From contig JARGFV010000118.1 of NCBI GenBank assembly GCA_029210545.1, forward strand, positions 1-7,311: a stretch of DNA of 7,311 bases. Direction: 5' to 3'. A program made the translations under genes and the position numbers. The stretch's first letter is position 1. The number at the start of each line of letters is the position of its first letter. The notes below the pieces were generated by a model. It was given only the letters and a program-made list of their open reading frames with translations. It made no database searches and was not told the DNA's origin. This stretch comes from a bacterium. GTDB taxonomy: Bacteria > BMS3Abin14. Positions 277 through 7,311 of this stretch are shown piece by piece.

Positions 277-1578
277 ATGATCTGGGATGAAGAGTTTGAG
301 AGTATGCCGAGGGATGCCCTTGAATCGCTCCAGCTGTATCGCCTCAGGAAAACAGCTGAGCGCGTCTACGCCACTGTCCCTTTTTACAAGGATGCCTTCG
401 ACAAGGCCGGGATCCATCCGTCCGGGATAGGCTCCATGGCAGACCTGGGCCGCCTGCCCTTTACCGACAAGACCGACCTGCGTGACAATTATCCTTTCGG
501 ACTTTTTACCCTGCCCCTTCACGAGGTCGTGCGGATCCACGCCTCATCAGGGACCACCGGGAAGCCCACCGTGGTCGGGTACACCAGGCGTGACATCGAC
601 ACATGGTCATCGCTCATGGCCAGAACCCTGGCCTGCGCCGGCGTACGGAAGGGCGATGTGGTCCAGAACGCCTACGGCTACGGCCTTTTCACCGGAGGGC
701 TGGGTTTCCACTACGGTGCGGAGAAACTTGGCGCGACGGTGATCCCTATCTCCGGCGGAAATACCAAGCGCCAGGTCATGCTCATGGAGGATTTCGCCAG
801 CACAGTACTGACCTGCACACCTTCCTACGCCCTGACCCTTGCCGAGGCCATGGATGAGCTCGGAGTGACAAAGGATCGTCTCAAACTCCGGGTGGGGATC
901 TTCGGGGCCGAGCCCTGGTCCCAGAACATGCGCCAGCAGGTGGAAACCAGGCTGGGGATCGACGCTATCGACATCTACGGGATCTCGGAGATCATTGGAC
1001 CCGGCGTATCGGTCGAGTGTATCGAGGCCAAGAACGGACTCCACATCTTCGAGGATCACTTTATCCCCGAGATCATCGATCCTGAAACAGGAGAGAGCCT
1101 CCCATATGGAGAAGATGGTGAACTGGTTTTCACCACCATTACGAAAGAGGCGTTTCCGGTCATCCGGTACCGGACAAAAGACATTACCCGGCTGCATCCG
1201 GAACCTTGCCGCTGCGGTCGTACTCACATCCGCATGGACCGTGTGACAGGACGCACCGACGACATGCTCATCATCCGCGGAGTCAACCTCTTCCCGAGCC
1301 AGATCGAGAGCCTGCTCATGGAGATCGAAGGCCTGGAGCCCCATTACCAGCTCATCGTGGACCGGGAAGGGACCATGGATACCCTGGAGGTACAGATCGA
1401 GGTTAACGAGGACGTTTTCACAGACGAGATCAAGGGGCTGGAAAAGCTGGAAAAAGGTGTTGAGAAGGAGATCAAGGATATGCTGGGCATCTCCGCGAAG
1501 GTTCGCCTTGTAGAGCCCAAGACGATCGAGAGGTTCGAGGGCAAGGCGAAGCGTGTGATCGATAACAGGAAAATCTAG
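277..1578 (+). CDS. paaK: Phenylacetate-CoA ligase family protein (AMP-forming aryl-CoA ligase)
   Basis: By family, it is a cytoplasmic enzyme that activates an arylacetate with ATP and CoA to arylacetyl-CoA, AMP and pyrophosphate (ANL superfamily). The 433 residues match the usual PaaK length. Visible motifs, in order: phosphate loop SSGTTGKPT (90-98), YGISE (234-238), RYRTKDIT with Asp302 as the likely ribose contact (297-304), hinge region [19 protein letters not shown] (326-344) and a C-terminal EGKAKRVID (421-429) in which Lys423 is the likely adenylation lysine. Cys248, His256, Cys311 and Cys313 could form the metal site reported in some relatives; that is inference. The start has a good ribosome binding site and a family-like N-terminus ([10 protein letters not shown]). 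No key residue is missing. The substrate (phenylacetate, indoleacetate, hydroxyphenylacetate or other) cannot be read from sequence. The stop codon sits in a hairpin loop. The next gene, an ACT protein, is a recurrent neighbour of such ligases in anaerobes, from memory. Confidence 0.93.
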
Positions 1579-1592
1579 AGATTTCCCTGTTA
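1563..1592 (+). repeat. Hairpin enclosing the paaK stop codon in its loop
   Basis: 1563-1575 pairs with 1580-1592: 7 bp, one A-C mismatch (1570/1585), then 5 bp, closed by the tetraloop TAGA (1576-1579). The first three loop bases are the paaK stop codon, so the left arm encodes the last residues of the ligase. No U-tract follows; instead a tandem 7-bp array starts at the next base (1593). It may protect the mRNA 3' end or act as a weak bidirectional terminator. A similar arrangement is seen at the end of livF. Confidence 0.6.
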
Positions 1593-1627
1593 ATTCCATA
1601 TTCCAGATGCCGGATGCCGAATCCTTG
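1593..1627. repeat. Tandem heptamer array A (about five units, ATNCC-type)
   Basis: Five consecutive 7-base units begin at 1593, 1600, 1607, 1614 and 1621. The first four fit ATKCCRN (for example ATTCCAT, ATGCCGG) and the fifth is degraded. Adjacent units match at 20 of 28 positions by hand count. The array starts immediately after the stop-codon hairpin of paaK. I see no coding sense in it. Confidence 0.6.
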
Positions 1628-1693: not shown

Positions 1694-1728
1694 AAACTCA
1701 AAACCTGAAACTCAAAACTCAAAACTAT
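1694..1728. repeat. Tandem heptamer array B (five units, AAACTCA-type)
   Basis: Five contiguous 7-base units begin at 1694, 1701, 1708, 1715 and 1722, all starting with AAAC; units one, three and four are AAACTCA. Adjacent units match at 20 of 28 positions. The array ends 6 nt before the G-run that serves the ACT gene as ribosome binding site. The sequence differs from array A but the period is the same. The intervening AT-rich stretch (about 1634-1693) could hold a promoter, but I see no pair of boxes good enough to call. Confidence 0.65.
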
Positions 1729-3437: not shown

Positions 3438-3479
3438 GGTTAGGATCAGTTGCAGGAATCTGTGCCCGTTAATACTTCA

Positions 3480-3508
3480 GGGGGCCGATTTACGGCCCCC
3501 TTTTCCTT
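3480..3508 (+). terminator. Rho-independent terminator between livK and livH
   Basis: GGGGGCCG (3480-3487) pairs perfectly with CGGCCCCC (3493-3500) over 8 G+C-rich base pairs with a 5-nt loop ATTTA. TTTTCCTT follows directly. This is a textbook intrinsic terminator on the + strand. It should end or reduce the livK transcript before livHMGF, giving more binding protein than membrane complex, or requiring read-through or a separate promoter for livH. Confidence 0.85.
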
Positions 3509-6347: not shown

Positions 6348-6364
6348 CAGGTCACAGTGACCTG
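6348..6364. promoter_or_regulatory. Perfect 17-bp palindrome after the livG stop codon
   Basis: CAGGTCAC-A-GTGACCTG is an exact dyad of 8-bp arms around one central base, starting two nucleotides after the livG TAA. As DNA it looks like a dimeric-regulator operator. As RNA it could form a 7-bp hairpin with a 3-nt loop, but no U-tract follows. It is the first thing met in the 78-nt livG-livF spacer. Confidence 0.5.
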
Positions 6365-6390
6365 GGGAAAATGATCCCTTACGATCTAAC

Positions 6391-6418
6391 CGTAAACAGT
6401 AAACTGTAAACCGTTAAC
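6391..6418. repeat. Tandem heptamer array D (four NGTAAAC units) upstream of livF
   Basis: Four contiguous heptamers begin at 6391, 6398, 6405 and 6412: CGTAAAC, AGTAAAC, then TGTAAAC and CGTTAAC. Neighbouring units match at 17 of 21 positions. The array ends six bases before the livF ATG and occupies the place where a Shine-Dalgarno would lie. Its last 16 bases recur inverted at 7185-7200 beyond livF, with one difference. Confidence 0.75.
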
Positions 6419-6424
6419 TTCATT

Positions 6425-7162
6425 ATGTTAAAAGTGCGCAACATAACCACATATTACGGCCGGATCCAGGTCCTTCATGGCGTGTCCATCCACGTGGGCG
6501 AGGGGGAGATCGTGGCGCTCATCGGCGCCAACGGCGCCGGAAAAACGACTCTCATCAACGCTGTCAGCGGGATCCTCAAGATCGCCGAGGGAAGTATCAA
6601 GCTGGGTGAAAGGGAGATCGGGAACCTCCCGCCCGAGCGGATCGTCAAGGCCGGGCTATCCCAGGTCCCTGAGGGGAGGCTGATCTTTTCACCCCTGACA
6701 GTGGAGGACAATCTGCGTCTCGGCGCCTACATCCGGTACCGGGCCAGGGAAAAGGAAGAGATCAAGGAGGATCTCGAAAAGATCTACGAACTTTTTCCCG
6801 TACTGCGGCAACGGTCGGAGCAGATGGCAGGGATGCTGAGCGGGGGAGAACAGCAGATGCTGGCCCTGGGCCGCGCTCTCATGGCCAATCCCCGGCTGAT
6901 CCTCCTTGACGAGCCCTCCCTGGGTCTGGCACCCATCATCGCTGCCGGGATCTTCCGCACCATCGCGGGCCTTCGGGACAAGGGCGTGACCGTGCTGCTG
7001 GTGGAGCAGAACGCCCGTGCCGCCCTGGCCCTTGCGGACAGGGGGTATGTCATAGAGACAGGTTCTGTGGTCCTCCAGGACAAGGCCGAGCGGCTCCTGA
7101 GCAACCCGGAAGTCCAGCGGGCCTACCTGGGGAAGGGGAAAAAAGAAATTTGGGATTCCTGA
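6425..7162 (+). CDS. livF: ABC transporter ATPase, LivF type
   Basis: This 245-residue cytoplasmic ATPase is the partner of LivG. Walker A is GANGAGKT (34-41). The Q-loop segment is SQVPEGRLIF (79-88) with Gln80, and the signature is the family form LSGGEQQ (138-144). Walker B LILLDEPSLGL (158-168) has Asp162 and Glu163. The switch position is Gln195 in LLVEQNARAA, as usual for LivF in place of histidine. ATG 6425 gives a family-like N-terminus (MLKVRNITTYYG), but no purine-rich ribosome binding site precedes it, and the in-frame codons upstream reach a TAA at 6407 with no alternative ATG, GTG or TTG. The usual C-terminus around YLG (235-236 region) is followed by a short tail, KGKKEIWDS; its last residues are encoded by one arm of the downstream hairpin. 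It is separated from livG by 78 nt, unlike the overlapping livHMG genes. Confidence 0.93.
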   Translation: MLKVRNITTYYGRIQVLHGVSIHVGEGEIVALIGANGAGKTTLINAVSGILKIAEGSIKLGEREIGNLPPERIVKAGLSQVPEGRLIFSPLTVEDNLRLGAYIRYRAREKEEIKEDLEKIYELFPVLRQRSEQMAGMLSGGEQQMLALGRALMANPRLILLDEPSLGLAPIIAAGIFRTIAGLRDKGVTVLLVEQNARAALALADRGYVIETGSVVLQDKAERLLSNPEVQRAYLGKGKKEIWDS

Positions 7163-7184
7163 TATTCAAGAATCCCAAATTTCT
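7144..7184 (+). repeat. 15-bp hairpin enclosing the livF stop codon in its loop
   Basis: 7144-7158 pairs perfectly with 7170-7184, leaving an 11-nt loop (7159-7169) that contains the TGA stop (7160-7162). The left arm is coding and supplies the unusual KEIWDS end of LivF. No U-tract follows. A heptamer array begins at the last base of the right arm. It may serve as a 3'-end stabiliser or weak terminator, or be a dispersed repeat that overran the gene end. Confidence 0.7.
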
Positions 7185-7211
7185 GTTCACGGTTTACAGT
7201 AGACAGTTCAC
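7184..7211. repeat. Tandem heptamer array E (four NGTNNAC units) downstream of livF
   Basis: Units begin at 7184, 7191, 7198 and 7205 and all fit NGTNNAC (TGTTCAC, GGTTTAC and two more). Adjacent units match at 14 of 21 positions. The stretch 7185-7200 is the reverse complement of 6403-6418 at 15 of 16 positions, so arrays D and E are inverted relatives flanking livF. Confidence 0.6.
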
Positions 7212-7236
7212 AGTCAAAAAGTTTTTTCTGTATACT
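7207..7236 (+). promoter_or_regulatory. Possible sigma-70 promoter reading rightward
   Basis: TTCACA (7207-7212) and TATACT (7231-7236) are separated by 18 nt, with TG just before the second box. The -10 match is fair and the -35 match partial. It would drive a gene beyond the right edge or the hairpin-rich region. AT-rich spacers give such matches by chance, so confidence is low. Confidence 0.25.
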
Positions 7237-7247
7237 TTGATAGAGTC

Positions 7248-7275
7248 GCAAAAAGTCCAATCCGGGACTTTTCGC
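7248..7275. repeat. Imperfect hairpin downstream of livF
   Basis: 7251-7258 pairs with 7265-7272 over 8 bp around a 6-nt loop. After one mismatch (7250/7273), two more pairs extend the stem to 7248/7275. The GTCGCAAAAAGTCC core resembles dispersed hairpins I recall from deltaproteobacterial genomes. No T-run follows the stem. Confidence 0.5.
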
Positions 7276-7280
7276 TCCAC

Positions 7281-7310
7281 GGAAAGGGAAAAGCGTCGTT
7301 TTCCCTTTCC
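7281..7310. terminator. Perfect 12-bp hairpin, possible bidirectional terminator
   Basis: GGAAAGGGAAAA (7281-7292) pairs perfectly with TTTTCCCTTTCC (7299-7310) around the 6-nt loop GCGTCG. The window ends at 7311, so a downstream U-tract cannot be seen. The stem is purine on one strand and pyrimidine on the other. It is the likeliest end of the livHMGF transcript in this window, but may instead be another dispersed palindrome. Confidence 0.45.
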
Positions 7311-7311
7311 T

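Follow-up and report, generated by a model that had tools for sequence, protein, structure and literature searches.

Does a hairpin laid across the stop codon of a gene, with a tandem heptamer array directly behind it, reflect a shared architecture of gene ends, and how could such a structure arise? The question is raised by the end of a paaK-like gene in the window, by which is meant one whole 7,311-base contig of a 2.72 Mb draft genome (G000); the features are collected in Table 1. The final 13 coding bases of this gene, whose protein has family relatives that are 82-90% identical, double as the 5' arm of a hairpin. The first-pass annotation had described a stem at 1563-1592 with 12 pairs, one mismatch and a TAGA loop holding the stop, and this is confirmed, the pairs being Watson-Crick and the mismatch A.C. 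Among dinucleotide shuffles with the stop fixed in place, an equally good stop-overlapping stem occurred in 8 of 20,000 and had the stop in its loop in 3. The overall fold of the 96 nt around the gene end is unremarkable (z -1.0). Array A, which reads ATTCCAT ATTCCAG ATGCCGG ATGCCGA AT, matches itself at lag 7 in 19 of 23 positions (shuffle mean 5.3; none of 5,000 shuffles as good). It does begin directly at 1593 as had been claimed, but the repeat ends at about 1622 and not at 1627.

The bases that follow the paaK stem on the coding strand are ATTCCAT, i.e., without a T-tract. When 261 nt from the paaK end were searched against G000, the stem turned up nowhere else, and the remaining matches fell at query positions 196-252, in the second heptamer array; the stem is thus not one of the dispersed palindromes of the REP/REPIN kind. 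There was no match of the paaK end in the phage collection and no Rfam match in the window. A perfect 12-bp palindrome (CATCCGGATTTC/GAAATCCGGATG) is also found at 234-262, 14 nt upstream of the paaK start and beside the ribosome-binding region.

Table 1. Genes, hairpins and heptamer arrays of the window
Feature	Position	Strand	Basis
paaK-like phenylacetate-CoA ligase CDS	277..1578	+	ORF and codon-model gene call; name from first-pass annotation
paaK stop hairpin, 5' arm (coding), TAACAGGAAAATC	1563..1575	+	Stem search
paaK hairpin loop TAGA, containing stop TAG at 1576-1578	1576..1579	+	Stem search
paaK hairpin, 3' arm GATTTCCCTGTTA, inverted copy of gene end	1580..1592	+	Comparison with G003, G011
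Array A, ATTCCAN-type heptamers, flush with stem base	1593..1622	+	Lag-7 match score
Second heptamer array, AAACTCA type, other spacer edge, before next gene	1694..1727	+	TRF
Heptamer array directly upstream of livF, GTAAACN type	6388..6419	+	TRF, lag-7 score
livF-like ABC transporter ATPase CDS	6425..7162	+	ORF and codon-model gene call; name from first-pass annotation
livF stop hairpin, 15 perfect pairs, 11-nt loop with TGA stop	7144..7184	+	Stem search
Array E, GTTCACG/GTTTACA-type heptamers, flush with livF stem base	7185..7214	+	TRF, lag-7 score

A second composite of hairpin and array, unrelated in sequence, had been claimed for the end of livF and is indeed present, with arms at 7144-7158 and 7170-7184 and the loop CTGATATTCAA. 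The claim that its stop lies in the loop holds more loosely, as in the predicted RNA fold the TGA is itself base-paired, with a TCA, forming a small stem at the apex. This stem too has no T-tract after its 3' end on the coding strand. The livG end, where the 17-nt palindrome CAGGTCACAGTGACCTG at 6348-6364 starts 1 nt past the stop, may be counted as a third, looser case in the window. Canonical T-tract terminators exist too, e.g., at 3479-3501. Separately, the window carries at 7247-7311 a copy of a dispersed hairpin element (GCAAAAAGTCC...GGACTTTTCGC, then GGAAAGGGAAAAGCG...) which occurs at 37 loci of G000 and G003 and is common to two genera. Exact copies of this element, the one in the window included, often lie 30-70 bases from contig ends, and therefore it seems to break assemblies.

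Gene ends were surveyed in 1.15 Mb of G000 (about 42%), 1.2 Mb of its relative G003 (about 38%) and 0.4 Mb of the complete genome G001 (about 14%). Genes were called with our own codon model, an end was counted if its spacer was 60 nt or longer, and stems were required to score at least 10 (pairs minus 2 per mismatch) with a loop of 3-12 nt. Hairpins overlapping the stop were found at 52 of 570 ends in G000 (9.1%), 28 of 606 in G003 (4.6%) and 2 of 237 in G001 (0.8%); the same test found none at 92 gene ends of E. coli K-12 and none at 237 ends from wider relatives, sampled at 74 loci. Overlap with a start codon is far rarer (7/569, 1/611 and 0/229 for G000, G003 and G001; P<1e-7 for the contrast between stops and starts). 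Near the stop in G000, each 10-nt bin holds 1.4-4.6 hairpins per 100 ends, where shuffles give about 0.02-0.04; hairpins exceed the shuffles more than 30-fold. Dispersed families account for about 60% of the spacer hairpins of G000, and with these separated the unique stems alone peak at the stop and show no peak at the start, being about 2.5-5 times denser near stops than across most of the spacer. Hairpins occur in none of 190 spacers of 20-59 nt versus 66 of 958 spacers of at least 100 nt, and they are nearly absent within genes; palindromes and arrays are present all through the spacers. The architecture is real and lineage-specific, and the proposal that gene 3' ends of unrelated sequence share it is borne out by stop-overlapping hairpins far above the shuffles. 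An artefact of assembly or amplification is ruled out because the hairpins are rare in genes, are common to several genomes with compensatory changes, and are biased to 3' ends. Nor are they classical (Rho-independent) terminators, because T-tracts are nearly absent after the stop-overlapping stems (3 of 52 in G000, 0 of 28 in G003).

The first-pass annotation had further taken the stop codon in the loop as a feature of this architecture, and here the counts disagree. Of 50 stems in G000, 6 hold the whole stop in the loop, where random placement of stop-overlapping stems gives 6.0, and of 28 in G003, 6 do so, where it gives 3.5; the commonest position of the stop is the 5' arm. A designed placement is rejected on these counts, and the position in the loop is therefore incidental. 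At paaK itself it is conserved, the loop in the relative G011 being exactly TAG.

Seven nucleotides is the sole strongly over-represented period in the spacers of G000, G003 and G001, with 12-24 lag-7 runs per 10 kb versus about 0.1-5 at other lags, and with none at lag 7 in E. coli. Period-8 repeats show a weaker but clear excess, at about 4-5 runs per 10 kb in the spacers of G000 and G003. Each genome has many unit types, and each array is internally alike. The tie of the arrays to the hairpins is one of placement. In 18 of 27 detected cases the gap between stem end and array start is about -3 to +3 nt, and flush arrays accompany 18 of 75 stems versus 114 of 1,009 bare stops, although a wider window was granted to the latter (odds ratio about 2.5, P=0.002). 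Likewise, the lag-7 match fraction in the next 35 nt is higher after a stem than after a bare stop (0.442 +- 0.027 versus 0.341 in G000; 0.452 +- 0.039 versus 0.370 in G003). The association seen at paaK and livF thus extends to flush placement and graded periodicity but not to joint occurrence at fixed thresholds, where 6 cases were seen versus 8.5 expected in G000, with no significant enrichment of arrays among its hairpin ends, and 8 versus 4.4 in G003. Most arrays lack a hairpin and most hairpins lack a detectable array. The two are separable features, because G001 has arrays and almost no stop hairpins. Many bare stops also have arrays starting right after them, and therefore the array behaves as filler with its start set by the end of the gene or of its stem.

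Arrays are found at both edges of a spacer twice as often as expected. When the two edges of one co-directional spacer were compared in G000, G003 and G001, 40 of 73 pairs shared 6-mers in inverted orientation versus 12.7 in permuted pairs (maximum 23 in 500 permutations); sharing in direct orientation was at chance (6 versus 6.4). For example, the paaK spacer has ATTCC-type arrays at both edges in G011 and G006 and TTTGA-type arrays at both in G003, so that the unit type changes in concert at both edges between relatives; G000 is mixed, with no complementarity between its array at 1694-1727 and array A. The likeness of the edge arrays is maintained either by copying in inverted orientation or by selection on their pairing. 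A literature search found no description of paired inverted heptamer arrays.

The history of the hairpins could be followed in 331 ortholog pairs of G000 and G003, in which most stems occur in one genome only. Because the orthologs that lack a stem retain the coding arm and miss the 3' arm, the latter is the derived part, a copy of the gene tail in inverted orientation. Identity over the last five amino acids is equal in hairpin genes (0.436, n=11) and non-hairpin genes (0.456), which argues that the coding arm is ancestral. Turnover between genera is fast. The G003 ortholog of paaK has no stem and carries a different array at that place. In G011 the paaK stem has been kept through three double changes (C-G to T-A, A-T to C-G and A-T to G-C) and one repaired mismatch, all synonymous. 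Hairpins at both orthologous ends were seen in 8 pairs versus about 2 expected (P=1e-4), mostly as unrelated or strongly changed stems, and some of the 8 are T-rich terminators or dispersed elements and not of the U-less kind. The closest relative is 90% identical in the PaaK protein, and inter-genus spacers are too diverged for placing switch points.

Template switching in replication is a published route by which a near-perfect stem can form in a single step and be mended through multi-base compensations (PMC8794818), and earlier work on the heptamer repeats of bacteria has put forward slippage in 7-nt steps (PMC4692102, PMC4679880). Taken together, the two processes account for how every part arose. 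It seems on balance probable that these two processes remodel the spacers of this lineage and that stems past the stop are kept as U-less 3'-end structures. The spacers would be altered by replication errors, namely short template switching (backward copying) and slippage in 7-nt steps. A switch from the gene tail to just past the stop would leave the gene end copied there in inverted orientation, so that a near-perfect hairpin spans the stop; the rest of the spacer would be filled by heptamer arrays from where the gene or its hairpin ends, and longer-range inverted copying would produce matching, oppositely oriented arrays at both edges. The stems past stops would be preferentially kept, most likely as U-less transcript 3' ends that assist Rho-dependent termination or protect from 3' exonucleases, and equivalent stems would be purged at start codons and within operons. 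We infer both the replication mechanism and the transcript-end role, the support for the origin being good. The survival of stems just past stops, their absence from the 190 short spacers and their recurrence in orthologs suggest that they are used at transcript ends without a U-tract, and G000 does encode Rho. The enrichment at 3' ends could be partly passive, since decay is slower for a palindrome that has one of its arms in coding sequence, and it counts against this explanation that small spacers offer less room for a 3' arm.

Ordinary mutation and selection could instead have produced U-less ('I-shaped') intrinsic terminators, the arrays being irrelevant neighbours. Many bacteria have been proposed to terminate transcription in this way close to their stop codons (PMC8355165), and such a mode would fit hairpins that sit at gene ends with spacers, are absent from short spacers and co-occur in orthologs. 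However, perfect stems of 12-20 bp with a coding arm, non-homologous at the same position in relatives, are hard to reach by point mutation, and the T-tract counts (3/52 and 0/28), with canonical T-tract terminators such as that at 3479-3501 existing alongside, also speak against this explanation, which we regard as unlikely. We would give a similarly small chance to the neutral view that palindromes and heptamers are mutational debris, the stop bias coming from protection of the coding arm and from purging at starts and in operons. The conserved presence of hairpins at orthologous ends (8 versus about 2), the paaK pairing kept through three double changes and the 2.5-5 times denser unique hairpins near stops are at odds with pure debris, even if palindromes and arrays throughout the spacers, fast turnover between genera and the inconsistent position of the loop agree with it.

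That a mobile element or enzyme recognizes gene ends and brings in the 3' arm together with the array as one unit is very improbable. The arrays do sit exactly against the stems (18 of 27 with a gap of about -3 to +3), and the paired inverted arrays look like terminal repeats, but the stems share no common sequence, the unit types are many, and arrays are frequent without hairpins, in G001 almost entirely so. Two Y1-type transposases were found that would better fit the separate dispersed hairpin family. An origin by reverse transcriptase is rejected, as the search of G000 gave no RVT_1 match. Loss of the hairpin nuclease SbcCD was considered as another cause. None of 12 family genomes had an SbcD match above the curated cut-off, but this includes the hairpin-poor G001, and many unrelated genomes also lack one, so that the absence of SbcD is at most permissive for palindromes and leaves the difference between G000 and G001 unexplained. 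SbcC gave weak matches only, as it did in control genomes, so that this search is little informative; ExoVII (xseA) is present in 8 of 9.

The STRR repeats of cyanobacteria are intergenic 7-nt tandem arrays. The arrays described here are likewise intergenic tandem heptamers in excess of control periods, but they have no dominant consensus per genome. Similar intergenic 7-nt arrays are the heptamer repeats of Xanthomonas and Nostoc, those of Xanthomonas lying mostly near the neighbouring ORF on their 5' side as here (PMC4692102), and the TAACTGA repeats of Beggiatoaceae (PMC4679880). Whereas all these families have one main consensus per genome, the present arrays have many units, form inverted pairs across the spacer and abut stop hairpins. 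The hairpins resemble U-less (I-shaped) terminators and hairpin clusters, which lie within about 20 nt of the stop and often have no U-tract (PMC8355165), but here the 5' arm is coding, the 3' arm is its derived copy, and a terminator function is putative. The inverted repeats at E. coli gene ends are also enriched near gene ends and depleted before start codons (PMC6060812); unlike the present hairpins, they are situated downstream of the stop codon and mostly belong to intrinsic terminators, and in our test they overlapped the stop at 0 of 92 ends. There is also a likeness in form to template-switch hairpins, with near-perfect inverted-copy stems and multi-base compensatory changes (Monttinen and Loytynoja 2022, PMC8794818), which were published for RNA genes and not, as here, across the stops of protein genes in one bacterial lineage beside 7-nt arrays.

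A more far-reaching and tentative possibility is that an active lineage-specific process places inverted copies of gene tails past stops and maintains the edge arrays in base-pairing register, so that de novo, constantly renewed stems at transcript ends and in intercistronic spacers would replace sequence-conserved terminators or processing sites. The lineage offers a genome-scale natural case in which gene-end hairpins apparently arise through inverted copying and not through point mutation, and in which coding constraint holds the ancestral arm in place. The system makes the template-switch origin of RNA stems, and their selective retention as transcript ends, directly testable.
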